DNA of 64,000 nt from Verrucomicrobiales bacterium (GTDB taxonomy: Bacteria > Verrucomicrobiota > Verrucomicrobiia > Verrucomicrobiales > DEV007), in the NCBI GenBank assembly GCA_002698785.1, contig PAAG01000032.1, positions 1 to 64,000 of the forward strand, read 5' to 3'. How positions within the stretch are numbered: the first letter of the stretch is position 1; the number at the start of each line of letters is the position of its first letter. The position numbers and the translations under genes are program-made. Below, in pieces: positions 28,407-56,359 of the stretch. The notes beneath the pieces are model-generated. The model saw nothing but the letters and a program-made list of their open reading frames with translations. It made no database searches and was not told the origin of the DNA.

Positions 28407-30791
28407 TTACCGATTCCACCAATCCTTAAATACCTGATCGGTTGTTTTCGATTCACCCTCCGGCCAAACGAAGACTTTGGCATCATCGAGGCCACGGCTT
28501 CCCCCAGAGCCAACGATAAGGATGCGGTCTCCATCAAAGGAAGTGAAACGCATAGAAACAGGTTCGCGATACGTAAGCATCTGTTCCTGCAGGATGCCAA
28601 CAGCGACTCGCTCTCCCATGCGAAGAGATTCATAATAGTCGGTGTAATAATGCACTCCTGCAAAATTTCGGCCGATGGAAATATTGGCGGCTAGTTTGTC
28701 GAGTTCGCCCTGTATGGAAAGGCCGCTTTCCTTTGCCTTTACCAAAATTTGGCCAACCTCCCATTGCTGGCCGCTGCAATCGCAGGAAGCGCCGGGATCA
28801 GCCTGATATGCCGTATCAATCGTTGCCTTCGGGGCGGAACTTTCAGGGTCCTTGTTTTTAAGAATGATTTCGTCACCGAACAACGATTCAGGACAATTGT
28901 AAGGTCCTGTGGTTTCAATATATTCTTTCAGGTTCAGTTTTCCCCGTTCTACTTTTCCTTCCTCAAAGAGACTACCATCGGTCACTTTGTTCATTTCGAA
29001 GAAAGCTTTCAAAATAGTGACACATGCGCCAGCTACGGTGGCATGTCCCGCCCCATAGGAAGGGTGCAACGGTGAACCTTCCGGAAAAGCCATTGGAAGA
29101 AGCCCATTCTTTTCTTCCTGTATCCACCTGTTGTCTAGCAACTCCTCCAGATCGGGATTTCCTTGCAAATCATCCCTCCACTTACTGTTTTGTTCTCCGT
29201 TGTGTTTGGAAATCTGGTCCAGAAACTCTGTTGCATTGAGATCTGTGAACATCTTTCCTACCTCATCTTGCACATGGCCAAGGGCGGCCTCCCCATTCCA
29301 TGCGAGAGTAACCGCTTCGGCTAGCGCTTCCGGCCGTGAGCGGAGATGTATATTGTATTTTTGTCTCCGTACCGCTTTTAATGCGCGCGTCGCCACTTCG
29401 CATACAAGGGTGAGAATGTGCGGGCCACCAAAAGTCGCAAAGCCATCTCGAGTGGGATGTCCTTTACCTTCGGGCATGCCGATATCGGTTGCGGCATCCT
29501 GACCGAGTAGAATGAGGCAAGCGTTCAGGTAAGCCTGATAGAGCTGGTCAAAATGCACGTATGTTGCCAAATCTCGGGGAGTGGTGATGAACCGCGATTT
29601 ACCACCTCCATCACCATCTTTAAGGAACAAGTCGAAGTTTTTACGGTTTGATCCATTTTGCACATCTAGCCACGAAACCAGATTCGTCATGTGATCCCTG
29701 AATGGTTGATGAGGAATGACACGTTGGTTGATTACTTGGACTCCATATCGTATCAAACCATCAGTGTGAATCGCCGGACCATCGTGCGCTATTTTATCCG
29801 GGTGTTCCGAATCCGAATCTCGCAATGTCTTCAGGGTCTTACTATCGCAGAATTGCCCCGCACGGTTGAGGGCGTCTTCGCTAAGGCTCTCGATTGCACT
29901 TATTGCTTCCTTCCCCGCAAGTGAAGATGGAGAGAGTGCATCTTTTACGGATTGTCCCTTGATCTCTTCGTTCCCTATCAGCATGAATTGGGAAAGGTAA
30001 GGACCGTTATGTGCTCCCGGTGTCGACCCTCGAAACAAATTCTTGCGGGTAAGCTTTTCTTCGCCCATCAACCGAGCTCTACGGCGACGTTTTGCCCGCT
30101 CGTCGAGCCCTTCTTCACTCTTAAAGAACGGGAGTTCGTTCAGTGCGTTGATAACCGCATCAATCTTCGAAAGATCATAGTCTGCCTCTTCCGAACTGAT
30201 TCCATTGAACTTCTCCGGGTCTTCCTCCCATAGAGCAAATGGAACATCCCTCAAGTAAGCTTGTGCATAGACCTCAGCGATTTCGGCAATTAACTCAGCC
30301 GAACCGAGTTTTGGAGCGGGTGGCATGGCGACCTGATCCGGGTCCGGGCCTTCGAGCTCTAACGTGTGTCCGCAGAGTGGGCTTTCGTAGTTGCGGGCTT
30401 CATTTCCAGTCTGAGGCCAATGAAATTCTCCCGAGAATTTTTCCACTGCAAAAGGCGCGGGAAGTCGCGAACTGTAAGTACCTGGTAGAGGGGTCTCACC
30501 GAGTGAACTTCCTGGTTTATCCTGATTGATTTCGCTGATGAAAGTGCGGAGGTCCTCCTGTTTTACTCGACCGAAATCGTCGTGCTCCAGACTTTTCGAG
30601 AAAGTACCGAATGCCGAAACCCAGCCATCTCCATCGGGTGGAGTGGCCAGTGCTTGTTTTGCTTCGCCATTGTTCTCCTGCGTGCGAGCAGATACGCGTT
30701 CGCGAGAGGTATCAGATGCTTCGTCACGGACTCGACTAGCCATCAAGGCACGGACGGTTTCGGAAGGGATGGGATCGAGATCTTCAGTCAT
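28407..30791 (-). CDS. Vanadium-dependent haloperoxidase (PAP2 superfamily)
   Basis: The 794-residue protein matches algal/cyanobacterial-type vanadium bromo- or iodoperoxidases. HPSYGAGHATVAGACVTI lies at ~575-592 and ISIGRNFAGVHYYTDYYES at ~699-717, providing the vanadate-ligand Arg and catalytic His of G-R-N-x-A-G-V-H. Upstream, QKYNIHLRSRPEALAEAV (~478-495) supplies the K/H/RPE signature. In Corallina-type enzymes the first block reads S-x-P-S-G-H; here Ala replaces the Ser before G-H. No signal peptide is visible, so cytoplasmic or non-classically exported. Function: peroxide-driven halide oxidation, with possible roles in chemical defence, biofilm control or peroxide detoxification. It stands alone. 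Confidence 0.9.
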   Translation of the reverse strand: MTEDLDPIPSETVRALMASRVRDEASDTSRERVSARTQENNGEAKQALATPPDGDGWVSAFGTFSKSLEHDDFGRVKQEDLRTFISEINQDKPGSSLGETPLPGTYSSRLPAPFAVEKFSGEFHWPQTGNEARNYESPLCGHTLELEGPDPDQVAMPPAPKLGSAELIAEIAEVYAQAYLRDVPFALWEEDPEKFNGISSEEADYDLSKIDAVINALNELPFFKSEEGLDERAKRRRRARLMGEEKLTRKNLFRGSTPGAHNGPYLSQFMLIGNEEIKGQSVKDALSPSSLAGKEAISAIESLSEDALNRAGQFCDSKTLKTLRDSDSEHPDKIAHDGPAIHTDGLIRYGVQVINQRVIPHQPFRDHMTNLVSWLDVQNGSNRKNFDLFLKDGDGGGKSRFITTPRDLATYVHFDQLYQAYLNACLILLGQDAATDIGMPEGKGHPTRDGFATFGGPHILTLVCEVATRALKAVRRQKYNIHLRSRPEALAEAVTLAWNGEAALGHVQDEVGKMFTDLNATEFLDQISKHNGEQNSKWRDDLQGNPDLEELLDNRWIQEEKNGLLPMAFPEGSPLHPSYGAGHATVAGACVTILKAFFEMNKVTDGSLFEEGKVERGKLNLKEYIETTGPYNCPESLFGDEIILKNKDPESSAPKATIDTAYQADPGASCDCSGQQWEVGQILVKAKESGLSIQGELDKLAANISIGRNFAGVHYYTDYYESLRMGERVAVGILQEQMLTYREPVSMRFTSFDGDRILIVGSGGSRGLDDAKVFVWPEGESKTTDQVFKDWWNR

Positions 30792-42948: not shown

Positions 42949-43090
42949 CGGTCGATGGTGAGTAGGGAAATCTCCTGAAAAAGAACCTACTTGGTTTCGC
43001 TGACACAGAAAAGAAGAAACGGTCGCAGAAATCGTAAAGGGGGGACCGAAAAGCAAATCCAGCGGCATTTTTGAAGTTCAGCGCACACCC

Positions 43091-43372
43091 TTACGGCCCA
43101 AACATCTGCAACAGCAGAAACGAAACCACAGCCCCCGCCGCGCAGAACAGGGGAATTCGAAGCGCTTCCTTGGACTGCACCTTCACTGCGCGAGCAATTC
43201 CGAAAACACCAAAACCAACCATCCCCACGCCATACCACAATGCGGCCGCCTGCTCACCCGGGCTCACATCCGACTGCGATCCAAAAATTGCGATGGGAAT
43301 CCCAACAATGATACTGGCCAGGAAGAGTAGAATCAAAAGAGCAAGCGCCGCTCGATATCGCTTCGCCATCAC
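43091..43372 (-). CDS. Small three-helix membrane protein
   Basis: The 93-residue product has hydrophobic segments at ~8-30, ~45-62 and ~73-90. It starts 3 bp after the stop of the upstream gene (43375), so the two are co-transcribed. No family is recognised. Confidence 0.65.
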   Translation of the reverse strand: MMAKRYRAALALLILLFLASIIVGIPIAIFGSQSDVSPGEQAAALWYGVGMVGFGVFGIARAVKVQSKEALRIPLFCAAGAVVSFLLLQMFGP

Positions 43373-43374
43373 TT

Positions 43375-44028
43375 CTATTCAACCTTTCCGCCACCTCCAT
43401 CGACGGGCTCATTCGCTATCATCACGAATGCTCGTCCCGTTAGCGCAATATCGTCGTATTCACTCTCCGCTGCTTGTTCGGCGAGCACTAGCCCGGCCTC
43501 CTTGTCATACTTTAAGAGAACGTTGAAACATCCTGTCAAAAAATCACAAGTAAACCGAAGGCGCCGCTCTCTGGCAATCTCCTCCGGGCTCGATAGTATG
43601 GGTTCACCCGTCAATGGGTGACCAACATAAACCTTGCGTTCCACCGCCACGACCGCCGGCCCTTGCGGTAAAGCCAGCAATGCCTCGACCAGAGCCTTCG
43701 TCTTGGACACCGTGTATTCCGTTGCAATGTCTTCCGCTGAGATCGTTTGAAAGAGACTTTGGTAATAGTAGTCTCGATAGTTTCTCCCTTCATCATCCAC
43801 GAGGAAATCCACCAGCACCCAGAGTTTTCTCTCAAGAGAGAGTTCACCATCAGGAGACAAAAACCTCCTTTGGATTTGCACCTTCGCATGACTTGTCAGA
43901 GGAGCTAGCGCCTGCTTCTCTATCTCGTGATCCTGACCCTCCCACGGATCGGCAAACTCTGGAGACGCCACGGAAAAGCTTTGAAATACAACGAGAAGTG
44001 AAAGAATCAGAACGTGGCGGGATTTCAT
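43375..44028 (-). CDS. Secreted hypothetical protein
   Basis: The 217-residue protein has a signal peptide (hydrophobic ~6-20, cleavage after SVAS or nearby), then a mostly helical, acidic mature chain with phrases such as SLERKLWVLVDFLVDDEGRN and RERRLRFTCDFLTGCFNVLL. Two Cys (~177, ~182) may form a disulfide. It forms an operon with the small membrane protein downstream. No family is recognised. Confidence 0.6.
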   Translation of the reverse strand: MKSRHVLILSLLVVFQSFSVASPEFADPWEGQDHEIEKQALAPLTSHAKVQIQRRFLSPDGELSLERKLWVLVDFLVDDEGRNYRDYYYQSLFQTISAEDIATEYTVSKTKALVEALLALPQGPAVVAVERKVYVGHPLTGEPILSSPEEIARERRLRFTCDFLTGCFNVLLKYDKEAGLVLAEQAAESEYDDIALTGRAFVMIANEPVDGGGGKVE

Positions 44029-44075
44029 TCGAAACAGAGCGTATCAGGCCAAGGTGAAATTTCTCCAGTTATAGG

Positions 44076-44303
44076 TCATGTAATCGGTTTTGGCTTCTTA
44101 ACGCACGCCAGAGTCGTAATGGCGCCCAGATACGGAACCAGAAAGACAAGCAGGATCCAAAGAGGAGTCGCCGATCCAGAGGTGAACTTGGCAGCCTTAC
44201 GAATCGCCAATACCGCTAGGACTAACCAGACCAGAAAGGTGGATATCTGGATGATAATAAACAGAGGCGTTACCCCAAACGAATAGTCAATTTCTTCCTC
44301 CAT
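44076..44303 (-). CDS. Small PLDc_N-like two-helix membrane protein
   Basis: The 75-residue product has two hydrophobic helices (~10-30 and ~46-66) with the phrase PLWILLVFLVPYLGAI, resembling the PLDc_N (phospholipase D nuclease N-terminal) two-helix family, which is often an accessory membrane protein. Similar in design to 17170-17409. Function unknown. Confidence 0.6.
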   Translation of the reverse strand: MEEEIDYSFGVTPLFIIIQISTFLVWLVLAVLAIRKAAKFTSGSATPLWILLVFLVPYLGAITTLACVKKPKPIT

Positions 44304-44444
44304 ACCTCCAGCAGCCTACAGAGCAAAGAAACGCCTTTCAATTCCAAACACGTAATCTGTTTGTAAAACACTGCTCGACCGACCGCGGTGATTAGCGGCT
44401 GTCTAACAAGCTAGGTTTCACCGAGGGAGCATTAACTATCCGAA

Positions 44445-44759
44445 TCAAACCGGCCCTCGTGATTTGAACGTCACCCAGCACGAGAGCAATGCTGACAGTC
44501 CTGAAACAAGCGAGCTTCCAATTCCATAGAGGACGGTAATGCCCAGTGCAGAGCCAACCGAATCAGCCAAACTCTCCGAACGGGGAGATACCTCGAAGAA
44601 CGCGATCAGGAAAACAATGCTGCCCGTTACCAGGATCGCGACAAACAGTGCGGCAACCAACCCACTAAAGAGGCTCCTGCTTCGGCTTGCAGAAACGAAG
44701 CCCGAAGCAATCCCGATAAGGATGAGAACCGCAAATATCGCGGCTTCATTTGGACTCAT
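44445..44759 (-). CDS. Small three-helix membrane protein
   Basis: The 104-residue product has hydrophobic segments at ~6-24, ~30-54 and ~70-95. It lies 53 bp downstream of the helical protein gene at 44813-45298, in the same direction, and so may be the last gene of the putative conflict-system cluster. No family is recognised. Confidence 0.5.
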   Translation of the reverse strand: MSPNEAAIFAVLILIGIASGFVSASRSRSLFSGLVAALFVAILVTGSIVFLIAFFEVSPRSESLADSVGSALGITVLYGIGSSLVSGLSALLSCWVTFKSRGPV

Positions 44760-44812
44760 TGCTCACTTCCTTGCGGATTTGCTCGATGAAGGAAATTTCG
44801 ATGCGGAACGTT

Positions 44813-45298
44813 TCACTCCCCATCCTTTTCTGCCTCCAATTTCGTCAAATCTTCCACATGGGCCATTGCGGCGAGTGCCTGGGTGTATTGGCGGAGCTTT
44901 TCCTGGAGTTCTTCCAGTTCGTCGCGGAACTCCTGATTGAGTTGGTCGTCTTCAAAACAATTCTGCAGCGAAAGGCGATGCCACTTCGCCGTAAACGGTC
45001 GCACAATTTGATTCAAAACTGGGATGGCGATTTTAGCGAACTCACCACAGCCTGATCCCCTTGCTCTGAGGATTCCACGTGTCTCCGCAAACATGGAGTA
45101 AATACTGTCGAGGGCTGCTTTTTCATCTCCGTCTCCGGGAGTAAGACGTTGCGTAGTAATGCGAGTTAGCAATTCGACATACAAATCCCAGGCGGCTTCA
45201 CGGTCTGCATCGCTTGGAGCGAATTCTGCTTCGAGGAACCGAAGATTCAGTTTTAGATTGCTGAGCTTCCAGTTCTCCAGAAAATCACGAAGTTTCAT
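44813..45298 (-). CDS. Helical companion protein of the TIR cluster
   Basis: The 161-residue product is predicted almost entirely helical with no signal peptide. Well-marked phrases are KLSNLKLNLRFLEAEF, AAWDLYVELLTRITTQRL, SGCGEFAKIAIPVLNQIVRP and FTAKWHRLSLQNCFEDDQLN, then a C-terminal coiled-coil-like stretch (EELEELQEKLRQYTQALAAM). From memory this type of protein recurs beside TIR or other effector genes in bacteria, which suggests a sensor or adaptor in a conflict system. That association needs a search to confirm. It is 88 bp downstream of the TIR gene in the same orientation. Confidence 0.6.
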   Translation of the reverse strand: MKLRDFLENWKLSNLKLNLRFLEAEFAPSDADREAAWDLYVELLTRITTQRLTPGDGDEKAALDSIYSMFAETRGILRARGSGCGEFAKIAIPVLNQIVRPFTAKWHRLSLQNCFEDDQLNQEFRDELEELQEKLRQYTQALAAMAHVEDLTKLEAEKDGE

Positions 45299-45385
45299 AG
45301 GGAAACACTAGAATGGTCAACTAGGACTGCAATGGGTTTCTAGTTGTGATTTTCGCCTTACGAAGAAGGTAAGCATCCCCAATAC

Positions 45386-46237
45386 TTAGGGAGCAGATCG
45401 GCGGAGTTGGAAATTGTCGGAGAATCGAAGTTTCGAGGCTGTATTCGCAGTACATTCGTAGACCTGCGCCTGGTTCAACCGCTCGCGTAGTCTCGAAAAT
45501 ACATCGTGCCAGATGGTTTGGCAGCGGGGAGGAATTTCCTCTCTTGTTCCCTGTAAATATTCTTTCACCTCTCGAACTTCTGTATCGTCAACATTGAGCA
45601 CGTAGTAGGTCTCTTTCGCTTCAGTGCCTGAATTTTGAGCAGCGAATTGCTCGAAACACCAGGCCTCTTTTCCGGTCCAGGTCGACTGCAGTGAAGCCCG
45701 GGTTACGAGAACCAGGCACTCATTCGCTTGCCGAAGGGCAGAGATGATCTCCCCGTTAATCGGTCTCTGCTTCTCAATCATCATTTCTGCCAGCCAGGGG
45801 CGCCGATCTTCTCGAAGCGCTATCGATAGGTCTCTCGCCATCTCGAAATCACGATGAGAATGAGAGAGAAAGATCGATGACTTGTCTTCAGTGTCAGTTT
45901 CCAGGAGTTCGGGGATTCTCACCGCAATGTTCGTATTGAGAAGGGGGTCCAATTGGCGGTCACCTACATGCTGAGTAGCGCCCCAGAGTACTTCAAGGCT
46001 GGACTTACTCGGAAGGGAAGAATAGCGCAGGCTCGGGATAGTATTCTGCTCTACGGAACCAGAGTAGTAATCCAGAAGAATACGCTCCAGCTGTTTCTCT
46101 GATTGTTTTCTGTTAAGAACTCGGTCGGCGAGCGTTCGAACGGTAAACCAGGGTTTCTCAGATCGTCTGCTTCTAACTTCTCCGGTTTCTCCTTCAAGAA
46201 AACGAATCACCTTTTCGATAGTGTTAGAGCTACTCAT
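45386..46237 (-). CDS. TIR-domain protein
   Basis: The 283-residue protein has a TIR domain at ~119-255. It shows SIFLSHSHRDFEMARDLS (first strand and helix), RRPWLAEMMI (second strand/BB-loop region), CLVLVTRASLQSTWTGKEAW (fourth strand and the W-x-x-x-E helix start). Trp187 and Glu191 are spaced as in TIR NADases, whose catalytic residue is the Glu. The N-terminal ~110 residues are helical with winged-helix-like composition (ADRVLNRKQSEKQLERILLD). Such proteins degrade NAD+ or make cyclic-ADP-ribose-type signals in defence. It lies between the TIR-SLOG gene and the helical companion in one minus-strand run. Confidence 0.85.
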   Translation of the reverse strand: MSSSNTIEKVIRFLEGETGEVRSRRSEKPWFTVRTLADRVLNRKQSEKQLERILLDYYSGSVEQNTIPSLRYSSLPSKSSLEVLWGATQHVGDRQLDPLLNTNIAVRIPELLETDTEDKSSIFLSHSHRDFEMARDLSIALREDRRPWLAEMMIEKQRPINGEIISALRQANECLVLVTRASLQSTWTGKEAWCFEQFAAQNSGTEAKETYYVLNVDDTEVREVKEYLQGTREEIPPRCQTIWHDVFSRLRERLNQAQVYECTANTASKLRFSDNFQLRRSAP

Positions 46238-46284
46238 CTCCTAGCCAGAGGGTTTGTGTTGGCGTTCAGAAATAATTCCGCTAT

Positions 46285-48552
46285 TCAGCGATTCTCTAGG
46301 GCGGCAACCAATCGCGAGAGTCCCGTCTGCACATACTCTCGGACTTCATCGATCGTCAGAGCGCGAAATAGCCCGAGGTTCTCCTCCTTCGTAAGCCCAT
46401 TGTTTTCCGCAAGCCTCTCTACTCCGTAGTCCTTGAAAAATTGGATCAACTCTTCCGATTCGATCGGGCCGTCGTATCCCTTTTCTTTAATGTCAGGATT
46501 CGAAGAACCAAAGTTCTCTTCATAGCACGCACGAACATCCTCGGGCAGTTGGAATTGAAACCTGGCTTCTTCTTTCCCTAGCATGGCATCCACGACCTGC
46601 CCGATCACTCCTCCGAAAATGGCGGAGATGTATAGGGGCTTGTCATACAAACAACTGAAGAAAGCTTCTTCCACCACTCCGGGGCACCGTCCTTTTGGCC
46701 CTGCGTCAGGATTTTGGAGGTCCATGTCACGACCTCCAAAGCAAACCCTGGCAAAACACTTTTCTGTCATGGTTCTCCGCATTACAGTGAGAGATCGGGC
46801 AAAAGCATATCCACTCTCTTCCTTGGGTAGTTGGAAAAGAAATCTTTCTTCCCCCGAGTATTCCTTCGGTGGATCGCAAGGGAAGATATCCAGAATGCCT
46901 TTCATCTGGTTTCGCTCCCTTTCCGTAAGGGATGCCGGTAAACCCCAGAAAGCATAGTTTTTGATCAAACCGGGGCGGTCGACCTCTTCCAGAACTACCT
47001 CTTGTCGTTCTTCGGCGAATTTATACATCTCGTGCATCACGCCGTCGTTTCGCCAGTCATGTCCGAGGGCGACAATTCCTTCGTTCGCAATGATTGCCTG
47101 GGACAGAAGAGTGACGGCGTTGTTGATCTCTGTCATGCCGATTCCCAGTTTTGGAAAATCATCTACGTGTTCCGAGACAGAGATGTTAATTTCTAGCTTA
47201 GGGCGAGGTTCGAGATCCTCCTTCCGCGAACTGGTTTTTGGCATCAAACTGTAGCTCGCGATATTTTCGTCAGTCTCAGAAAACTTGTGCCCCTCCCAGA
47301 AGGGCAAGAGGGTAGGGGTAAGCAAATATGTTTTCCCACAACGGCTCTCCAGGTATTCACGGCAAGCCACATACATCTCTGTTTCCAGTGGAGGATCGGC
47401 GTAGAGAGCGATTTGATAGTCCTTCTTGTCGTTCAGGTCACCCTCTTCCGCATTTTTCTCCATCGCCTTACCGGCATAGATCAAATGTTTCAAGGTGGGA
47501 GTATAGGGGATAAGCTCTACCCCTTTCGCTTGTTTGAATCCCGGATGATTCTCTTCCAGCTCTAACTGCAATCGGCGAAGACGAAGAATGCGCAGGCTTT
47601 CCTTAAGCGCAGGAAAAAGAATCCGAAACAGATTGCCGTCTGGAATTCGCACGTTAGGTACCCTGTTAGTGCTCAGCGGGTCGGCTTCGAACTCGAGGTG
47701 CAGCCGTGCTTCCACGCAAACAATCGGGACGCAGCATTGTTCCGCCCAGAGGAACTCCTGACGACACCACGGGCGTTTGTCATACTCGCCGGTTCGTAAG
47801 ACGACCACAACTGAAGTCTCCACACCCTTCCTGATCTCCTCTCTCCAATCGTCAACTCCGTTTAGATCTTCCGCATCGTACCAGGAAGAGAAATATGACT
47901 TTTCATGGAGGGCCAAACGCACAGAATTCGCCAACGACAAGCTGTCCTTCTTCGCATGGCTGATGAAAAGCTTCAGACTACACCTTTTCTCGTCGTCTGG
48001 GAAAATCGCTTTTGTGAGAATTTTGCGGCAGATTTGTAACACATACAACGCAAACCATGTAGCTCTCTCCGCATACTCACCGAAAATGCTTGTATCCTTG
48101 GACTTGGCAGCTGCAGGTCCCGGAATTGGATCGACCTCTTGGTATCCGCGCTTGTCGGAATAGTCAGAGTCTTCGATCGTATGGTAACGTTTATGGATCT
48201 CGTCCGAGAGACAGAGCGCCAAGAGAAAATGTCGCCCTCCACATTCTTTTCCATATTGCTCGGCCGCCTTGAGCCATTGACTCCAGTCCTCGTCGGTCTC
48301 CAGTTTTGAATCAACAACCACGACAACCAACGTGTGTAACGCTCCATCCAGCATATCCCTTGCTTCAATTTCCGGCGGACCGTTGCGAAACTCACGCATA
48401 GGCACATCAAGATTGCTCAGCGTCGCGATGTAGGGAGTGTCTTCTCCCAAATTACCTCGGAAGGCAGTTTTTACTGCCGAGACCAACTCCGAGCTCGTTT
48501 TATCGCTCGCAGTTGAGCAGAGGATGATTTGGATTGGTGGTTTCGTGATCAT
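46285..48552 (-). CDS. TIR-SLOG protein with additional N-terminal domain
   Basis: The 755-residue protein is cytoplasmic (no signal). Residues ~1-175 form an alpha/beta domain of uncertain type (IQIILCSTASDKTSSELV; LHTLVVVVVDSKL) that could be a degenerate TIR or related fold. A TIR domain lies at ~191-325: L-K-L-F-I-S-H-A-K-K-D (193-203), S-S-W-Y-D-A-E-D-L, and R-P-W-C-R-Q-E with candidate catalytic Glu266. A SLOG-like Rossmannoid domain follows at ~460-660: GIVALGHDWRNDG (492-504), ARVCFGGRDM (601-610), G-R-C-P-G-V-V-E-E-A (621-630) and LYISAIFGG (640-648). SLOG domains bind nucleotide signals, so this is a likely sensor-effector. The C-terminal ~95 residues are helical. A terminator-like hairpin ends 10 bp upstream of the start. 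Confidence 0.82.
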   Translation of the reverse strand: MITKPPIQIILCSTASDKTSSELVSAVKTAFRGNLGEDTPYIATLSNLDVPMREFRNGPPEIEARDMLDGALHTLVVVVVDSKLETDEDWSQWLKAAEQYGKECGGRHFLLALCLSDEIHKRYHTIEDSDYSDKRGYQEVDPIPGPAAAKSKDTSIFGEYAERATWFALYVLQICRKILTKAIFPDDEKRCSLKLFISHAKKDSLSLANSVRLALHEKSYFSSWYDAEDLNGVDDWREEIRKGVETSVVVVLRTGEYDKRPWCRQEFLWAEQCCVPIVCVEARLHLEFEADPLSTNRVPNVRIPDGNLFRILFPALKESLRILRLRRLQLELEENHPGFKQAKGVELIPYTPTLKHLIYAGKAMEKNAEEGDLNDKKDYQIALYADPPLETEMYVACREYLESRCGKTYLLTPTLLPFWEGHKFSETDENIASYSLMPKTSSRKEDLEPRPKLEINISVSEHVDDFPKLGIGMTEINNAVTLLSQAIIANEGIVALGHDWRNDGVMHEMYKFAEERQEVVLEEVDRPGLIKNYAFWGLPASLTERERNQMKGILDIFPCDPPKEYSGEERFLFQLPKEESGYAFARSLTVMRRTMTEKCFARVCFGGRDMDLQNPDAGPKGRCPGVVEEAFFSCLYDKPLYISAIFGGVIGQVVDAMLGKEEARFQFQLPEDVRACYEENFGSSNPDIKEKGYDGPIESEELIQFFKDYGVERLAENNGLTKEENLGLFRALTIDEVREYVQTGLSRLVAALENR

Positions 48553-48561
48553 GGAATGGCG

Positions 48562-48602
48562 AAAAAAATCGAAGGCAGAGTACCATCAATCTGCCTTCGA
48601 TT
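48562..48602 (-). terminator. Intrinsic terminator upstream of the TIR-SLOG start codon
   Basis: Perfect 13-bp stem (48567-48579 with 48590-48602, 10-nt loop) followed on the minus strand by a T-run (48562-48568, partly in the stem). It lies 231 bp beyond the metalloprotease stop and its T-run ends 9 bp before the TIR-SLOG ATG at 48552. It can terminate the upstream gene, or act as an attenuator that controls TIR-SLOG. Confidence 0.9.
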
Positions 48603-48832
48603 CACTTTTATATTCTGCCTGTTCCGTTAGGTGAGGACCAGGTCCTCAGCGATTAGGGATTTCCCCAACCTGCCATACTCAAGGCACCACTCTATCTGAG
48701 TTTCTCTGCCAGCTCTTATCTATTCATTTGATCGAAATGAATATCTCATACCAGATACCGCGGACTTGGGTGCAGTGATATCGTAAATCGCATCCGCTGC
48801 ACCCTGCTATGTGACCTGGAGCTGAGAGCTTG

Positions 48833-50002
48833 TTAATTCTTGCGGTAGCCTTCCCATCCTTCGGTTGAGATCTTCTCGGCAGTTTCTTTTGCCGACTTGG
48901 AAACCTCTCTCAGAGTCTCTGACGATGAAGAAGACCGGCCCAAAGTCTCAAGTGCGTCATTCGCTGCTGGTGTAGCGACGAGTCCAAGACCCAGGGCGGC
49001 CGATGCCGTCAGGTCCTCCATTATCTCGTTGGTATCGGGAGCGACTACTCCCTCTTCTTCGACGGACTCGACAGCGTTACTCTGAGCTATTGCCAAGTCT
49101 TTCTCCGCGGAATCTTCAGTAGCCAGTGTCTTGAGAAAATCAAAAGCATTTCCATCATCGGTTTGTTGAATAAAGTCTCCGAGGTGCAGAATTGCAGCAA
49201 GCTTAGCCTCAAAAGCATCATCGGTGTTAAAAGCTGTGTTCTTGATGAAATTGACGATAGCATCGCGAGATGCAGGGTCGCCAATATAGCAGAGGGTAGT
49301 CACGATCTGGGTGAAGAACTCTTCATTTCTCGGGTCTTTGAGAAGTTCTTCAAGATAGCGAGCTTCTTCCTCACCATATTGAGAGGCTTCCTCAAAAGGA
49401 ATGCCATGGATATACTCGGTGAAAACAAAATCATCGATCCGTCTCGCGCTATCGGGTACTTCGCTTGTGACTTCGGGCAGTTCTCCCTCAAGAGTCTCGA
49501 GGGGGCCATTGAGATATTTACTCGCTTCTCTTTGATCGACAAATTTCATCCCCGATCTCACAGCGCCGAACATGATGAACTGAGAGTTGTCCCGGCGATC
49601 TGGAAGGCCACAATTATGACCAAACTCATGAGGGAGGATGATATCGAGCGAACGTGACGTTCCTTTGATAGTCATATCAAGACGATTCACTCCTACAGGC
49701 GCACACCCGGCAAACGTTCCGGTATGGGTTCCACATGATTGAATACCTCGGACCAGCTTCAGAGACGTTCGCGCTATGTTGAATACTTCATTGTAATCAC
49801 TCCTGCTTCGCATCACACCGGGAACGTTGTTCGGGAGGACATTCACATTACCTTTCCGGACAAATTGGATATCGACAGGGACATCTCTCATTCCGTCTTT
49901 TCGTTGCAGACGTTTTGAGGCGTCAGCGAAGATTCTATCTGCTTTGCTATTGGAAAATCGTACAGATGGATGTCTCCAGATTTCTACATCTACGGTTCTC
50001 AT
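48833..50002 (-). CDS. Metzincin-like zinc metalloprotease with helical C-terminal region
   Basis: The 389-residue protein has a zinc-binding motif H-E-F-G-H-N-C-G-L-P-D (~125-135), which fits H-E-x-x-H-x-x-G-x-x-D; Asp135 replaces the usual third His, as in snapalysin-type metzincins. A Met-turn candidate is Q-F-I-M-F-G (~141-146). The N-terminal ~120 residues are alpha/beta with DVPVDIQFVRKGNVNVL and the phrase HTGTFAGCAP. The C-terminal ~200 residues are helical with repeats resembling HEAT-like pairs (FFTQIVTTLCYIGDPASRDA; FEAKLAAILHLGDFIQQTDD), a likely partner-binding region. No signal peptide: an intracellular protease. It sits between the terminator and the trypsin-like protease. Confidence 0.75.
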   Translation of the reverse strand: MRTVDVEIWRHPSVRFSNSKADRIFADASKRLQRKDGMRDVPVDIQFVRKGNVNVLPNNVPGVMRSRSDYNEVFNIARTSLKLVRGIQSCGTHTGTFAGCAPVGVNRLDMTIKGTSRSLDIILPHEFGHNCGLPDRRDNSQFIMFGAVRSGMKFVDQREASKYLNGPLETLEGELPEVTSEVPDSARRIDDFVFTEYIHGIPFEEASQYGEEEARYLEELLKDPRNEEFFTQIVTTLCYIGDPASRDAIVNFIKNTAFNTDDAFEAKLAAILHLGDFIQQTDDGNAFDFLKTLATEDSAEKDLAIAQSNAVESVEEEGVVAPDTNEIMEDLTASAALGLGLVATPAANDALETLGRSSSSSETLREVSKSAKETAEKISTEGWEGYRKN

Positions 50003-50096
50003 GATTGTATTTACTAACTGTTCTCTTACGGATTTCTCTTCTATTGACTAGTGGTCGACAAAACTGATTTGAACGATTTGTTCAGAGGTCTCTTAA

Positions 50097-50990
50097 TTAG
50101 GCGATCCCGAGTTCCGTAAGGATCTCTGACGAATTCTGGAACGTCTCTCGAAGGTCTTCAACGATTCGGTCTATGCGAATTCCCTCGTTGTTGACAAAGT
50201 CGCCTTCGGCATTCGTTTCTCCTCCTGCATGATGAAGCGCCACTAGTTGCCAAACGTTGTCAAATACCGGAGAACCCGAGGATCCCGGTTCTGTATCACC
50301 CTTGTAGAGGACGATGTTCCGAAACAGCTTTGCGATTTCATTGTCCTGCAGAGCAACTTCCTTTCTACGACCATTCGGGTGTTGAATGATATTGAAATGT
50401 TGTTCCTCTCTAAACTGAACGAATGGTTCGAGTTGAATTGACCCCCAACGATTTCCGGGCGGGATGGGAGTGCCGTCGTTCTGGATAGGGCCGGGGTTAA
50501 GGCGAACCAAAGTGTAATCCAGATCAACATTGGTATGGAGAAAGCCATCCGCCGCTGCGAGATAGCTCTCAGGTATCGTCTCGAAGCCGTCTAGAGTAAC
50601 TTGATAGTTGAATTCGAAACGAATTTTTCGCAGGAATCCGGCTTCCCTGATGACATGGTTGTTAGTCAAGAAGAGACTTGGGCTGACGAGAAAACCAGTG
50701 CCCCAGCCACTTCCTGCATTCAATCCTCTATGCGGCTCACGAAGAGTGACACGAGCGATGCTGCGCTGGCGGCTTGCTCCTGATTCGAGAAAGGCAACCG
50801 GAAGGAGATCGTTCTCATCGATAATGCGCTCGAGCTGACCAGTCGGTCCGAGTTGATCTCCAGAGGAGAAGCTCACTTCTTCACCTCGCTGGGATTCAGA
50901 AAGATGGTTTCCGTTTGCGGCGGTTGCACTCGATTCTAGTGGGAATGTTCCCTCTGTGCGTATGTCTGCGATTCGGTGGTCGTTACTCAT
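50097..50990 (-). CDS. Trypsin-like serine protease, no signal peptide
   Basis: The 297-residue protein has a polar ~75-residue N-terminus followed by an S1 protease domain. H112 lies in FLTNNHVIRE (the family's T-N-x-H), D158 in DLDYTLVRL, and S238 in G-S-S-G-S-P-V, the G-x-S-G-x-P nucleophile. It is similar to V8/glutamyl-endopeptidase-like or trypsin-type stand-alone proteases. No export signal or PDZ domain is present, so intracellular action is inferred. It is the first gene of the minus-strand run and diverges from the 51614 gene. Confidence 0.85.
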   Translation of the reverse strand: MSNDHRIADIRTEGTFPLESSATAANGNHLSESQRGEEVSFSSGDQLGPTGQLERIIDENDLLPVAFLESGASRQRSIARVTLREPHRGLNAGSGWGTGFLVSPSLFLTNNHVIREAGFLRKIRFEFNYQVTLDGFETIPESYLAAADGFLHTNVDLDYTLVRLNPGPIQNDGTPIPPGNRWGSIQLEPFVQFREEQHFNIIQHPNGRRKEVALQDNEIAKLFRNIVLYKGDTEPGSSGSPVFDNVWQLVALHHAGGETNAEGDFVNNEGIRIDRIVEDLRETFQNSSEILTELGIA

Positions 50991-51613
50991 TTCGTATCTT
51001 TTTGTTGCGATTGGTTAATTATTCTCGATTCGGATGAAAGGGTGAAATGTTCTGGAATGAACGTTAGGGAGAAATGCGATCGTATCTTGATGGAATAGAG
51101 CGGAGTAAGAGTGCTTTTAAAAAGAGCGGTGGCATAAGGAAAAGAGCATAGCAATGATGATCGTAATCGTTATGGAAATTTTCCAGGTATGGGTAGGGGA
51201 TTCTTTTCTCTAATTCTAGAAATAACCTGGTGAGAAGAGCTTACTTTTGAATGCTAGTTGAGAAACCTTATCTCCGACACTTCGTAGCATATGACTAGGT
51301 AGATTCCCGCTAAGTGTCCAGTGTAGAATTAAAAAAAACCTTCAAACAAGGTAACGTGACAATCTTTGTCTCAAGGGGAGCGATCGCAATAGCAGCGGGT
51401 GTCTGAGGCGACACACACTCCTCACAATTTTCTAAAACAGTACAATATGCTTGCCAACATTCTTTCAGGTTGGTATCGAAAACGCTACACCCGCTTTGAA
51501 TACACGAGAAGAGGTTTTGTTGCTCGACTAGGCGAAGACTTGAGACGAGATGCTAAACCTCCTCATGTCACTTCTACACGTTTCATTTGTTCCCATTTCA
51601 TAATTATAATAAA
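50991..51613. other. Divergent regulatory region of the candidate conflict system
   Basis: About 620 bp, AT-rich, between the start of the trypsin-like protease gene (minus) and the 51614 gene (plus). Any promoters and operators for both arms of the cluster should lie here. A 72-codon open frame from 51399 ends in low-complexity sequence and is not believed. No known operator was recognised. Confidence 0.5.
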
Positions 51614-52273
51614 ATGAGTTACATTCCAGAACCCGACGTTGTTTATAGACCTATTCTCGAATCACTTTCCGCGGGCAAGACTCCGGTCGAAGAGGCACTG
51701 CCTCCGAGTGTCAAAAATGTCCGGATGAGCCTGAACGATGTGTTCATCAAGAAAAATCGCGCTTTCGGAAGAGCAGAAATCTATGTGGCCAGCGTTGTCA
51801 CAGATGATATTTCGGAAGAACCGATCGTCACCTCGATCAAGACCTTTGAAAACGTCAAGAACAACGAGGCTCTACCGCTCGGTCCATCCGGCGTCGCAAT
51901 GTACAGGAATCCCGTGGAAGGAAAGATTCCGCGTTTTATCGATTATCGAATCCTTATCATGGAATCGGACGAAGGGGTGCGACAAGCGGGGACTGTGCTT
52001 GAAGAAATTAGATCGGATTCGGAATACAAATCCGTGAGCGGGAAGTTGAAGGCGGCCATTGCCGCAGGAAATCCTACTGCTGCACTGGCAATGGAAATAG
52101 GTGGAGTTGTCCTGGGAATTGTTGCTCGAGTTCTGAAAATGAATCGGGACGATCAGATTATTTACGTCGCAGGTTCATTCGACAATGCATTCGAAAACCT
52201 TGGTGTGAACCACGGCGTAGTGGTTCAGGATACCAAATTTGCCACCATTTCTTACCAGGTGATGGCGGTGTAG
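51614..52273 (+). CDS. Unknown protein, possible C2-like or immunity-like partner
   Basis: ATG 51614 follows a short AT-rich leader; the product has 219 residues and no signal peptide. The first ~125 residues have alternating beta-strand patterning (MSLNDVFIKKNRAFGRAEIY; FIDYRILIMESDEG). Then come a helix pair with a small glycine/alanine-rich segment (AAIAAGNPTAALAMEIGGVV) and a final beta hairpin (QIIYVAGSFDNAF; FATISYQVMAV). I recognise no family. Its position directly before the protease-lipase gene, 47 bp away, suggests a regulator, substrate or inhibitor of that enzyme. Confidence 0.65.
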   Translation: MSYIPEPDVVYRPILESLSAGKTPVEEALPPSVKNVRMSLNDVFIKKNRAFGRAEIYVASVVTDDISEEPIVTSIKTFENVKNNEALPLGPSGVAMYRNPVEGKIPRFIDYRILIMESDEGVRQAGTVLEEIRSDSEYKSVSGKLKAAIAAGNPTAALAMEIGGVVLGIVARVLKMNRDDQIIYVAGSFDNAFENLGVNHGVVVQDTKFATISYQVMAV

Positions 52274-52320
52274 CCACATCGGTGACTCATATTTCATAAA
52301 ATTGTTCAGGAGGGCTAACC

Positions 52321-54762
52321 ATGAACGAAGCGCAGCGGACCAAACAGAATCTCGAATACCTGGAGTCACTCGGAGTATCACTGGATACACCGGTTGCAGA
52401 AGAGATGGTAGAATCGGCGGCCAGAAGGACCACAAGTTTTGAGAGTCTGGAGGCATCACCCGATGATACGTTGGAAACCTTTCACGGCGTCCAGGAGACC
52501 ATATCGAGAGGAGATTCCCTCTCGTTGAGTCAGAACGATTTCCTCGAAGCCATTATCTTTCCGACCAAGCGACCTGTCGCATACGTTACCGAAACGGGTT
52601 ACAACGACTTCGATCAGCCTGACTGGCTCTTTCTGAATGGGAGCGGCCCGAAAGAAATATTGGGAGCCGCATTTCCCTCGATTGGCCGGATCGAGTGTGC
52701 CGACAAGAGTTCTAAATACTGCGGTACTGGGTTTTTCGTAGGAGAAGACATACTCCTGACAAATCGACATGTTGCCCAGATGTTCGTGTCTGGAGTCGGA
52801 AAGCGGCTCAGGTTCATGGACTTCCGTGGACCCTTTATTGACACAGAGAAGTATGTCTACCCGACGCCTGGGAAAATTCTCAAGATAGAGGAAGCTCTCA
52901 TGATCCATCCCTATTGGGATGCCGCATTTCTTCGGGTGTCGGGAGATCTGGAGCTATTTACTCCGTTGACTATGCTGGCCGAACAACCCGAGGGACTCAT
53001 TGGGAAATCCGTTGCTACGGTTGGTTATCCCGCAAAAGACACGCGAAACGATTCGGCGGCGCAGAGCCTTGTTTTTGAGGGTGTCTATGATCGCAAACGA
53101 CTACAGCCGGGCAAGGTTTCCCACGAGAAACTTTCGATCAACTCATTTCAAAAAACGGTCGATGCCATGGGGCACGATTGCTCCACTCTCGGTGGCAACT
53201 CTGGATCATGCGTATTGGATATTGAGAGCGGCAATGTGCTAGGGCTGCACTTCGCAGGAATATACAAAAAGCACAACTTTGCTGTCCCTGCTTGGGAATT
53301 ATTGAGCGACAAGCAAGTCCGGGATTTGGGGGTCAAATACACAGGCTCTCCCGCTCAGGAACGGGAATGGGTCACTATCTGGGATAACCCTCTATATAAG
53401 GCGAGACCCGTCCCCGCTGAGGAAACACTGGTACCTACCGGTTCTCCAACAGGAATCGTCTCGGCCATGACTTGGTTCGAAACGATCGACGACTCAGGCA
53501 TTGCCAGCGGGTTTGAAAGGGACAGGGTCCAGACTGAGGACGCATTGATCAATGCTCTGGGGCCCGAAGAAGCCTACGAATACATACAGGATCTCGAAGC
53601 CGAACTGGGTAGCGGCGCAGGAGAAGAAGGGCTCTTCACAAAACCAGATCCAGAACTCCCTCACATTATCCTCCTTCACGGAATCATGGGGGCACATCTG
53701 GCGAACTTTGGAGTATTCAAAAACCGATACTGGCTCGATTTCGCAGAGCTCTTGAAAGGCAATCTTGCGGAGCGTCTAAGCCTCAGTCCAGATGGCCTCA
53801 AGGATTTGGTCGATGGAGTTACGCTCTTTCCTGACGGCCATATCAAACTATCCTACCACAAAGCTGCCCGCCGCTGGCGAAAGAAAGGCTTCGTTGTGCA
53901 CGAATTCTCCTACGACTGGCGAAAGAGCGTTTCTCTCGCCGCCGAAGAGTTGAATGCTAGGATCCGTCAGGTGAAAAATGGTAGTGGGAAGAAAGTCTGC
54001 CTTGTTGGCAACTCGATGGGAGGGCTTGTCATTAGCACCTATGGGAACAAGTTCGACGACTGGTCCGACTATGTTGAAAAAGTCGTTCTCGTCGGCAGCC
54101 CACTGGGAGGCAGCTATGCTGTCCCCATGGCAGTGACAGGTCAGAACAAGACACTCGCAAAACTCTCTCGATTCTCTCGCAGCGACACTTTGGACGAGTT
54201 TCGTCAGTTTGCTGCCGGAATACCTGGCTTGATTGAGATGCTGCCTCATCCCGATCTGTTTCCGGATGCCAACGCATTTTATGCCGAGGCAAACTGGCCC
54301 GACGAAATCTTTCCCAAACAGAAGTGGCTCGACCATAGTCGCAGTCTCAAAGACCCACTCCGCACTTCACCCATCCTGAAGGGCGCAACGTCACTTTTTG
54401 TATCTCTTCATCATCCCACCGCCGACCTGTGGACTGCCGAAGGAAAGCCCGGTGGAAATCCCTCGCTTGGCGACGGAACCGTCCCAACCCGGTCATCCTT
54501 AATCGATGGAGTGCCCGCTTTCAAAGTCGACAGAGTACACGGAGACATGTTGAACGATCCTCTCGTAATCTCGGGGGTGGTCGACCTCATCAAAACGGGG
54601 AACCCAAACCTCGCAAAAGTAACCGACCAGGATCTGAAGGGGCGGAATCCCGCACCAGAAACAGTCGAAGAGATTCCATCTGAGACACTGGAAGCCACTG
54701 CAGAAAAAATCGAACTTGGCGAGTTCGACCGAGTCGACTGGCTCGACTTGATGCAGCCTTGA
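52321..54762 (+). CDS. Trypsin-like protease fused to an LCAT-type alpha/beta-hydrolase
   Basis: The 813-residue protein follows a good Shine-Dalgarno GGAGG (52309-52313). Residues ~1-100 are helical and polar. The S1 protease domain (~118-330) shows H150 in LLTNRHVAQM, D200 in HPYWDAAFLRVS, and S294 in LGGNSGSCVL. The second half is an LCAT/PGAP1-like lipase or acyltransferase: H-G-I-M-G-A-H (453-459), YDWRKSV (531-537), nucleophile elbow G-N-S-M-G-G (563-568, Ser565), LGDGTVPTRSS (716-726, Asp718) and V-H-G-D (739-742, His740). A helical tail with an acidic end follows. No signal peptide. Likely a cytoplasmic membrane-lipid-directed effector that may be activated by proteolysis (inference). 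Confidence 0.88.
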   Translation: MNEAQRTKQNLEYLESLGVSLDTPVAEEMVESAARRTTSFESLEASPDDTLETFHGVQETISRGDSLSLSQNDFLEAIIFPTKRPVAYVTETGYNDFDQPDWLFLNGSGPKEILGAAFPSIGRIECADKSSKYCGTGFFVGEDILLTNRHVAQMFVSGVGKRLRFMDFRGPFIDTEKYVYPTPGKILKIEEALMIHPYWDAAFLRVSGDLELFTPLTMLAEQPEGLIGKSVATVGYPAKDTRNDSAAQSLVFEGVYDRKRLQPGKVSHEKLSINSFQKTVDAMGHDCSTLGGNSGSCVLDIESGNVLGLHFAGIYKKHNFAVPAWELLSDKQVRDLGVKYTGSPAQEREWVTIWDNPLYKARPVPAEETLVPTGSPTGIVSAMTWFETIDDSGIASGFERDRVQTEDALINALGPEEAYEYIQDLEAELGSGAGEEGLFTKPDPELPHIILLHGIMGAHLANFGVFKNRYWLDFAELLKGNLAERLSLSPDGLKDLVDGVTLFPDGHIKLSYHKAARRWRKKGFVVHEFSYDWRKSVSLAAEELNARIRQVKNGSGKKVCLVGNSMGGLVISTYGNKFDDWSDYVEKVVLVGSPLGGSYAVPMAVTGQNKTLAKLSRFSRSDTLDEFRQFAAGIPGLIEMLPHPDLFPDANAFYAEANWPDEIFPKQKWLDHSRSLKDPLRTSPILKGATSLFVSLHHPTADLWTAEGKPGGNPSLGDGTVPTRSSLIDGVPAFKVDRVHGDMLNDPLVISGVVDLIKTGNPNLAKVTDQDLKGRNPAPETVEEIPSETLEATAEKIELGEFDRVDWLDLMQP

Positions 54763-54978
54763 TGGCCGGGAGCAAATATTTGTTCGATTGACGCATCCTG
54801 TTTCGACAGCGTATTGCGCCAAATGAGCTACAGGAAGGGAAGGCAGAAGTCATACCTGCTAATATCTTCTCAGCTCGACCTCTTATGTGGATGTGTTAGT
54901 GTTTGTTGAGGCGAAGCTATCCCGTTGGCGGGCGCTGCTTCCAGCACTGTCAGATCCGCTTATGAGGGAAAAGCAGCA

Positions 54979-55073
54979 AAATGATGGTCCGAAAAACATC
55001 GCAACTCGCACAAAATCAGGGACATCACGCGAAAATGATGGAAAAACGAAACCCCCATCATTTCCCATCATTT
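54979..55073. promoter_or_regulatory. AAAATGATGG repeats and long-loop hairpin before FGE gene
   Basis: AAAATGATGG occurs near 54979 and 55033, and its inverse CCATCATTT(T) near 55056 and 55064. The copies at ~55032 and ~55064 can pair (10 bp, about 22-nt loop). They lie in the 385-bp gap before the FGE gene, which otherwise holds nothing recognisable. Confidence 0.5.
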
Positions 55074-55147
55074 TGTTTTTCACCATTTTTGAAAGCACTC
55101 GTAGACTCTTTCCTGAAAACAATTGTTTCATCCCTCTCCTCGTCCTG

Positions 55148-56359
55148 ATGCCCCCATACACACAACATTCCTACGAAAGCAGATTGGTGACTTCTGTCTT
55201 CGGACTTCTGACCTCTCTCTCCCTTCTCATCTCCTGCTCAGAGGCCCCACCCAAGACATCTCCTGACGAAACCACCACCTCGACTCCCGCCAACGCTCCG
55301 GATGGAATGGTCCTCATCCCCGGCGGCACCTACCAACGCGGTGGAGATGATGAAGAAAGGGAAGGGGAGTCCTTCTCGCACCAGACTGCCTATCCGGTTC
55401 ATGAGGTGCAAGTCGACGCATTCTGGATCGACGAGACCGAGGTCACGAATCGCCAGTTCATGGAATTCGTCGAGGCCACCGGCTACAAAACATTCGCCGA
55501 GCGCCCTTTGCCTGAGGAACGTGCTAGTGAACTCGATCAGGAAACAAAGCGAAACCTCCTGCGCTTGGAGCTTCTAGCAAACAATGCCACGGGACAGCAG
55601 CGCGAGGAAATCCTCGATTCTATCGACCGCATTCTGGAGGCATCAGAGGAGGGGCATTTCGCAGGAGCGATCATCTTCGCGTTGCCAGAAGGCGAACTAT
55701 CCGATCCGCAGGATATCTCCCAGTGGTGGAAGATCGTCCCCGAAGCAACCTGGCGCACTCCCGGTGGTCCGGGCACCACTCTTGAAGGCCTCGACGATCA
55801 TCCCGTTGTGAACGTCACCTACGAAGATGCTGCTGCCTACGCCGAGTGGGCCGGAAAGCGACTCCCTACCGAGGCGGAGTGGGAAAAGGCTGCTCGCGGT
55901 GGCCTCGATCATCAACCTTATGTCTGGGGAAAAGAGATGTTTCCCGAAGGCGAAGATGTCTGGATGGCGAACATTTGGCAGGGAAAATGGCCGCACGAAA
56001 ACTCCGAGGCCGACGGCTATTTCACCACCTCACCTGTAAAGAGTTTCCCACCAAACGACTACGGACTCTACGACATGGCGGGCAACGTCTGGGAGATTGT
56101 CGCCGACTACTACCACCCGAACGCCTACCAACTCGCCTCCGCAACCGAGCCAAATTCATCCGGACCAACAAAGGAAGATGCAACCCCTTCAGAAGAGGAA
56201 ATCGAGGCCCACGTCACCAAGGGCGGATCGTTTCTCTGTTCCGATGTCTGGTGCAAGGGCTATCAGCCTGGCGCCCGCGAACGAATCGATAACGAATCAC
56301 CCTCCAATCACACCGGTTTTCGCTGCGCCATGGATGTTTCCACTGCACCGTCTGAATAG
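55148..56359 (+). CDS. Formylglycine-generating enzyme (lipoprotein)
   Basis: The ATG at 55148 gives a lipoprotein signal ending L-I-S-C (~27-30); the upstream open frame from 54887 is rejected. The ~403-residue FGE-sulfatase domain begins GMVLIPGGTYQRGGDD (~54-69), with P-V-H-E-V-Q-V and D-E-T-E-V-T-N-R-Q-F. It continues to RLPTEAEWEKAARGG (~237-251), Y-D-M-A-G-N-V-W-E (~305), and G-G-S-F-L-C-S-D-V-W-C-K-G-Y (~359-372). The Cys pair spaced CxxxxC is that of genuine FGE, which oxidises a sulfatase Cys/Ser to formylglycine using copper; many FGE-domain proteins lack it. Exported, so it presumably acts on exported sulfatases. None is encoded in this window. Confidence 0.87.
   Translation: MPPYTQHSYESRLVTSVFGLLTSLSLLISCSEAPPKTSPDETTTSTPANAPDGMVLIPGGTYQRGGDDEEREGESFSHQTAYPVHEVQVDAFWIDETEVTNRQFMEFVEATGYKTFAERPLPEERASELDQETKRNLLRLELLANNATGQQREEILDSIDRILEASEEGHFAGAIIFALPEGELSDPQDISQWWKIVPEATWRTPGGPGTTLEGLDDHPVVNVTYEDAAAYAEWAGKRLPTEAEWEKAARGGLDHQPYVWGKEMFPEGEDVWMANIWQGKWPHENSEADGYFTTSPVKSFPPNDYGLYDMAGNVWEIVADYYHPNAYQLASATEPNSSGPTKEDATPSEEEIEAHVTKGGSFLCSDVWCKGYQPGARERIDNESPSNHTGFRCAMDVSTAPSE

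Follow-up and report, generated by a model that had tools for sequence, protein, structure and literature searches.

The 64,000-nucleotide stretch of Verrucomicrobiales DNA analysed in this work, hereafter the window, encodes next to a TIR-SLOG gene a protein that joins a metzincin-type catalytic domain to a HEAT-like helical tail and that starts without an export leader. Our preferred reading, which we hold tentatively, is that this protein is a cytosolic zinc endopeptidase with Asp as its third zinc ligand, and that together with the adjacent trypsin it makes up a variable proteolytic arm of a TIR-SLOG conflict cassette. The parts are of known kinds; their combination appears to be new. The open reading frame, its motif, the absence of a leader, the domain calls and the identities of the neighbours can all be read from the sequence.

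The metzincin gene and its product

The gene and its zinc site are placed as follows.

48833..50002, minus strand: leaderless metzincin with HEAT-like tail; 389 amino acids, ATG start, frame intact; metzincin catalytic domain from residue 1 to about 165, HEAT-like helical tail from about 184 to 388
49598..49630, minus strand: zinc site with the motif HEFGHNCGLPD (residues 125-135, from whose numbering the nucleotide positions are derived)

A sequence-only reading had drawn attention to this motif and to its Asp as third ligand, and we confirm it as the single occurrence of HE..H..G..[DH] in the 306 window ORFs of at least 60 amino acids, where 300 residue shuffles of the same ORFs give an expectation of 0.027 per shuffle. 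H125, H129 and D135 are the presumed zinc ligands, E126 and G132 are present as well, and the Met-turn methionine, M144 (in IMFG), lies 9 residues past D135; the protein therefore has both the HEXXHXXGXX[HD] motif and the Met-turn by which metzincins, clan MA(M), are recognized. The same reading had found no signal peptide and had named a leader missed because of a wrong start as the possible flaw. An in-frame TAG stands 16 codons upstream of the ATG, with no ATG, GTG or TTG between the two, and the N-terminus is hydrophilic, with a maximal Kyte-Doolittle value of 0.25 (13-residue window, first 60 amino acids), against 1.89 for a homologue in genome G430 and 1.38-2.67 for six export-like window ORFs, the latter hand-picked and the leader being judged by hydropathy. 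This excludes a wrong start as the cause of a missed leader; a frameshift in the assembly could in principle hide one. Since neither Kyte-Doolittle hydropathy nor inspection of the upstream frame finds a signal peptide, the intracellular location proposed earlier is well supported by the predicted N-terminus and by the alignment to the G430 homologue.

The window protein itself lies below every metzincin cut-off of Pfam, where all its matches are sub-threshold (HEAT_2 at 19.1 of 27.7 bits, M6 at E 0.062, PC_rep at E 0.22), and NCBIfam adds a sub-threshold M6-type domain only. Neither the snapalysin (M7, PF02031) nor the matrixin (M10, PF00413) profile of Pfam matches it at E up to 1, and searching the PDB with the single sequence gave nothing useful. 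Three other routes nevertheless lead to its classification as a metzincin by profile and model. The G430 homologue scores 24.7 bits with the matrixin profile (PF00413), just over its cut-off of 24. A two-sequence profile made of the window protein and this homologue, searched against PDB sequences, has 65 distinct matches to E 10, and the titles of the best 60 name matrix metalloproteinases, karilysins or enzymes of reprolysin/ADAM type, the best at E 0.017. Finally, VIA-align of a catalytic-domain model lists 50 matches, all of metzincin fold by title, at Z 5.6-7.6, values which by the tool's own warning (Z below 8) may mean a common arrangement only. This model was built from 15 aligned metzincins, a wider alignment used after a structure from the two full-length members only had given pLDDT below 50 nearly throughout the catalytic part; it is weak (mean pLDDT 50, pTM 0.49), finds no Foldseek match at E 0.001 or better and, being made on an alignment chosen for metzincins, is not independent proof of the fold.

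The tail of about 200 residues is helical in an AlphaFold model, with residues 211-388 mostly at pLDDT 62-75 and residues 184-208 and 311-321 below 50. Most entries of its Foldseek list are alphaRep, HEAT or armadillo proteins, and a few are 14-3-3 or further helical proteins (best E 0.027, no match at E 0.001).

Of the family placements, likeness to snapalysin, as first suggested, had to be given up. The snapalysin motif reads GLPD, and agreement is limited to this Asp motif and the position of the methionine. In the part of PMC3890501 available to us, snapalysin has HEXXHXXGXXD, Asp being accepted as third zinc ligand, and a methionine about 10 residues past that ligand. The window protein, unlike snapalysin, leaves the M7 profile unmatched, has a HEAT tail and lacks the leader expected of a secreted enzyme, and its nearest full-length relative is matrixin-type, with a His ligand and a lipoprotein-like leader. 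In fold and order of motifs it resembles, by profile and model, the matrixins (M10, PF00413) and the reprolysin- and astacin-type metzincins, from which it differs by the lack of a leader or long N-terminal pro-region, by the Asp ligand and by falling short of the Pfam cut-offs.

Relatives and the third zinc ligand

The sole full-length relative found is the G430 homologue, from the same order (L115:9492-10757; 25-27% identity over residues 7-386). It is co-linear over the full length, with a C-terminal region alignable to the end, and shares the HEFGHNCGL core, the cysteines C90, C100 and C131 and a trypsin-like gene nearby; unlike the window protein it reads HEFGHNCGLNH, with His as third ligand, and has a lipoprotein-like leader (lipobox-like as read by eye, in line with its hydropathy). 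By this alignment the window protein looks like the one without a leader in a metzincin-HEAT family that is otherwise exported, and we infer that its leader was lost rather than never present. The leaderless metzincin-HEAT architecture pointed out earlier is real, but the same architecture exists with an export leader, and since the exported homologue has the same tail, this tail is no adaptation to the island in which the window gene lies. Within 6.4 kb of G430 (L115:4428-10757) stand genes for a Sel1-CHAT protein, a trypsin with a lipoprotein-like leader and the metzincin-HEAT protein. The G430 trypsin has no BLAST match to the window trypsin, and the window TIR-SLOG protein has none in the 20-kb stretch round the homologue.

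Beyond its own copy, the protein has this one full-length relative in 386 order-level genomes, where matches at E up to 0.1 occur in 13 genomes, own included, the other 11 being partial only. The class-level sample (384 genomes, 5 matches with its own) holds no further full-length relative, the phylum-level sample (387 genomes, 2 matches with its own, the other tail-only) holds none, and 33 genus-level genomes hold the own copy only; these samples overlap. No full-length relatives were found in plasmids or viral contigs. One match, in G044 (L002/L022, 31% over the tail), was put down to chance or helical similarity, as the protein has the look of a phage-type nuclease (a reading without a family call), terminase-like neighbours and no metzincin part. 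An order-wide profile of the catalytic domain gave matches in 60 of 189 genomes, all of them weak except in the own genome and G430, and the metzincin motif is present in 25 of 28 loci from this search (30 returned, minus the own and G430 copies).

In the 15-row alignment of catalytic domains D135 stands opposite His in 14 of the 14 other rows, these being a chosen set (11 order-wide motif loci, L115, L111 and L120, aligned with the window) from which L105, L026, L015 and 14 other motif rows were left out on grounds of layout. Counted over 38 motif rows from 36 sources, with the G430 copy in twice (L115, L125), the third ligand is His in 33, Asp in 3 (own copy, L026 and L105) and another residue in 2. 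The L105 protein, from G434 of the same order, has its Asp-ligand metzincin part, HEMGHSLGLPDRYD, inside a giant ORF of 5824 amino acids and is alignable round the zinc site only; there it has the GLPDR and IMxG core in common with the window protein (35% over 57 residues), and it is the second-best local match to the window catalytic domain, after G430. With two further Asp-ligand proteins at hand, one of them this second-best match, the idea that Asp was derived from His was dropped. Judged from these alignments, Asp is a minority form of the third ligand among related metzincins, yet not unique.

The TIR-SLOG neighbourhood

On the minus strand the genes are transcribed in the order trypsin-like, metzincin, TIR-SLOG, second TIR and p161, with gaps of 94, 280, 47 and 87 bp, so that the metzincin gene does lie between signalling and protease genes, as had been noticed at first. 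The surrounding features are these.

50097..50990, minus strand: trypsin-like protease (Trypsin_2) with H, D and S motifs and without a signal peptide; precedes the metzincin gene at a distance of 94 bp
48562..48602, minus strand: likely intrinsic terminator; 13-bp perfect hairpin at 48567-48602 with a loop of 10, then a seven-T stretch
46285..48552, minus strand: TIR-SLOG fusion (TIR_2, SLOG cluster 2/PF18163); WCRQE and PGVVEE motifs present; 50% identity to L016/L023
45386..46237, minus strand: second TIR protein, extended at its N-terminus; 34% to L016_7019
44813..45298, minus strand: p161, stand-alone copy of a domain fused elsewhere to phospholipases beside TIR-SLOG
51587..52273, plus strand: 228-amino-acid protein of uncertain cassette membership, divergent from the trypsin gene
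52321..54762, plus strand: fusion of Trypsin_2 and an LCAT-type hydrolase; catalytic motifs present, leaderless

The residues taken as catalytic in the trypsin, LCAT, TIR (WCRQE) and SLOG (PGVVEE) parts are assigned from general knowledge of these families. The window trypsin is 34% and 29% identical to trypsins that directly follow TIR-SLOG in L029 and L053. The Trypsin_2-LCAT fusion, possibly a further effector of the island, is related by its LCAT half to L015 and by its trypsin half to L096 (39% each). Pfam matches of the eight neighbours scanned include no secretion-system family, no vWA or MoxR family and no SIR2 family. G+C is 0.47-0.50 at positions 44001-52000 of the window against 0.54-0.58 at 54-62 kb, which may be the mark of an acquired island, though low values occur elsewhere in the window as well. 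Elsewhere in the window, positions 28407-30791 encode a protein of 794 amino acids which we take, by motif, to be akin to vanadium haloperoxidases or PAP2-type phosphatases, and which has no match in PADLOC or NCBIfam at E 0.1.

The terminator-like hairpin stops 14 bases short of the TIR-SLOG ATG. It is the last of four perfect inverted repeats of 8-13 bp in the intergenic region (48553-48832), and a 311-nt stretch made of this region and its flanks folds better than 100 of 100 shuffles (z -3.9). A pattern scan for promoters and terminators gave matches near the shuffle level only, and its loop limit of 8 keeps this hairpin, with a loop of 10 bases, out of the scan; Rfam has no match over 43000-56000. 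The 94-bp gap between the trypsin and metzincin genes holds no hairpin. The hairpin and the folding argue for a separate transcript of trypsin and metzincin, or else for read-through into the TIR-SLOG gene, and on account of the hairpin simple co-transcription of the metzincin and TIR-SLOG genes is improbable; attenuation in the intergenic region is conceivable.

Of 374 phylum-level genomes, 8 have SLOG cluster 2 (PF18163), the own genome being one of them. A TIR-SLOG alignment scan of the genomes of 84,980 species returned 162 stretches with 91 confirmed relatives, 80 of which were kept and, together with six earlier stretches, make up the 86 loci profiled. Contig ends truncate many of these, L016 and L023 represent a single locus, and 84 have a TIR-SLOG profile match (L093 and L100 have none by the ORF calling used). 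A motif scan of the 86 loci finds the metzincin motif in three ORFs, of which the one in L015 alone belongs to the same run of genes as TIR-SLOG. There, in G066 of the same order, a leaderless astacin-like metzincin of 277 amino acids (Astacin, 26.0 of 22.5 bits), not orthologous to that of the window, belongs to a same-strand run of LCAT-lipase, metzincin, HEVGH protein and TIR-SLOG, whose ends overlap or lie 47 bp apart. The other two were rejected as cassette members: the L026 protein is 8.6 kb from the TIR-SLOG gene and has an N-terminal motif of export type, presumably of the kind found in exported proteins of this phylum, and the L044 motif lies inside an ORF of 2473 amino acids on the other strand. 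In L096, from a Planctomycetota genome, the row is TIR-SLOG, trypsin, subtilase and a HEVGH protein, and this last is homologous (8e-24) to that of L015; both, at L015:11696-13609 and L096:7394-9286, have 630-637 amino acids and are termed zincin-like by motif only, the one of L015 having no Pfam match at E 0.01. The cassette closest to that of the window, L016/L023, carries lipases and, by motif and profile, neither metzincin nor trypsin.

A count of neighbours over the named loci L024-L102 (same strand, up to two a side, gap below 200 bp, at least 100 amino acids) gave 115 adjacent ORFs, 58 of which were dropped as matching TIR profiles. Among the 57 left, Trypsin_2 and Nmad2 are the joint most frequent Pfam families with 3 each, patatin has 2, and restriction and metabolic families occur as well. 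On these domain calls proteases recur beside TIR-SLOG genes, as a minority. The window's own genome has a second TIR-SLOG gene (L017, G000:C58:3248-7902), beside another TIR protein and a protein readable as DUF4062-like with an amidase-like part; no protease profile matches near it.

The p161 domain, of about 150 amino acids and without a Pfam match over the cut-off, is found in 16 ORFs from 14 sources among the loci profiled and the window (window, L025, L029, L030, L032, L034, L036, L050, L051, L081, L099, L101 and L016/L023). It stands alone or makes up the N- or C-terminal part of patatins (five ORFs by Pfam: L023, L050, L034, L081 and L036) and of Tle1-like phospholipases (L016 and L101 by Pfam, L051 by our own profile), and by that same profile it is present in 7 of the 57 adjacent ORFs. 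It occurs in 11 of 141 relatives, own included, with a single copy in the own genome. Ten stretches round p161 copies of relatives hold a TIR-SLOG gene in two cases (L165, L172) and no metzincin motif; L167 and L168 have p161 and no TIR match in the stretch read. It may be an unnamed adaptor domain.

A proposed proteolytic arm and its alternatives

TIR chemistry is cleavage of NAD+, SLOG domains sense nucleotides, and both work inside cells. On invasion, the TIR proteins of the cassette would convert NAD+ into a nucleotide signal, which they might make or consume and which the SLOG part would bind and read, and the activated TIR-SLOG complex would then unleash proteases and lipases. The metzincin, presumably held back by its HEAT tail or by a partner protein, might be freed from that tail and switched on by the adjacent trypsin-like enzyme, and would then cleave host or invader proteins or mature a lipase effector. 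Trypsin, metzincin, subtilase, HExxH proteins, patatin, Tle1 and LCAT could all be interchangeable effectors or activators of this kind. For the metzincin we infer activity, trigger, order of events and substrate alike. A precedent is the bacterial nuclease proenzyme activated by a partner trypsin-like protease (in the accessible part of PMC12799240); Kaur et al. 2020 list metallopeptidases as rare effectors and propose proteolytic effector release (PMC7159879, accessible part), and trypsin and HEAT are among the parts of related conflict systems described in the portion of PMC8195603 at hand.

It is because proteases recur beside TIR-SLOG genes in a few loci that we read the metzincin as a variable proteolytic arm, and its TIR-SLOG, TIR and trypsin neighbours on the same strand speak for it. 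This context, together with the recurring proteases, also makes the regulatory or suicide role first suggested for the protein a plausible one. Against the reading as an arm stand the rarity of such metzincins in TIR-SLOG loci, of which they are not a core part, the lack of one in the cassette of the closest relative, the hairpin before the TIR-SLOG gene and the occurrence of p161 without TIR-SLOG (L167, L168). A more elaborate version is a protease-armed TIR-SLOG immune system with a bacterial two-step cascade set off by TIR signalling: an initiator of trypsin type would activate a cytosolic executioner akin to matrix metalloproteases, the second protease would be exchangeable from host to host (metzincin, subtilase or HExxH protein), and p161 would be the shared adaptor that plugs in phospholipases. 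As a whole this version is in our estimate rather improbable.

A rival explanation is a chance neighbour, a cytosolic metzincin-HEAT protease with an ordinary regulatory or quality-control role in a gene-dense variable island, where trypsin and metzincin would be a separate unit of two genes. The hairpin on one side and the hairpin-free 94-bp gap on the other fit such a unit, as does the G430 homologue, which is also near trypsin-like and Sel1-CHAT genes and has no TIR-SLOG match within its 20 kb; the closest TIR-SLOG cassette, being without a metzincin, fits it too, and the stand-alone copies of p161 led us to give this explanation more weight. We still think it unlikely, though it is to be taken seriously: trypsins of the same kind come directly after TIR-SLOG in L029 and L053, L015 has a metzincin without a leader next to its TIR-SLOG gene, and the lack of a BLAST match between the G430 and window trypsins means that the trypsin-metzincin pairing need not be inherited.

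Metzincins are mainly known as secreted enzymes, and the protein could also leave the cell without a leader, for instance through a contact-dependent secretion system, and act on other cells. The fusion of p161 relatives to Tle1-type phospholipases, a family named for type VI effectors, would fit this, and so would the three cysteines common to the window and G430 proteins. The neighbours scanned, however, hold no secretion-system family, the trypsin and trypsin-LCAT proteins on its flanks have no leader either, and the TIR and SLOG domains would act in the cytosol, which makes export of this sort a quite improbable explanation. Least probable of all is a catalytically dead or decaying relic, at most peptide-binding, as the Asp opposite His in all the chosen relatives and the orphan distribution might suggest, since L105 (same order, GLPDR context) and the metzincin-type protein of L026 also have Asp, both His, the Glu, Gly and Met are kept, the frame is intact over 389 codons and HEXXHXXGXXD is an accepted zinc motif (PMC3890501, accessible part).

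Several systems already described come close to the cassette. The conflict systems of Kaur et al. also combine trypsin and other peptidases with TIR, SLOG or related nucleotide-signal domains but, unlike the window's, are built round vWA-MoxR, iSTAND, EAD or NucA parts, and the accessible part of PMC7159879 describes neither a metzincin-HEAT protein nor a TIR-SLOG cassette. In EAD-type systems a shared adaptor is fused to several effectors; p161, elsewhere fused to patatin and Tle1-like proteins but with a single copy in the own genome, is at most a candidate for such a part. Thoeris has a TIR signal maker and a SLOG sensor as building blocks too, and a caspase-like protease branch (Rousset et al. 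2025, as cited in the accessible part of PMC12799240). In the window, unlike in Thoeris, SLOG is fused to TIR and not to SIR2, the proteases are a trypsin and a metzincin, and the Thoeris models match weakly (NF058526 at 26.1 of 220 bits, PADLOC ThsB weak). We found no published metzincin-HEAT protein, nor a TIR-SLOG cassette with a metzincin, in a literature search that covered mostly open-access papers, so that a prior description is possible.

The p161 domain could serve as a handle to find further TIR-SLOG cassettes. As for the protease, the leaderless metzincin of the window and the second, unrelated one beside TIR-SLOG in L015 suggest that bacteria may have put a fold known mainly from secreted enzymes to intracellular use more than once, where it would perhaps be an immune executioner comparable with the caspases.
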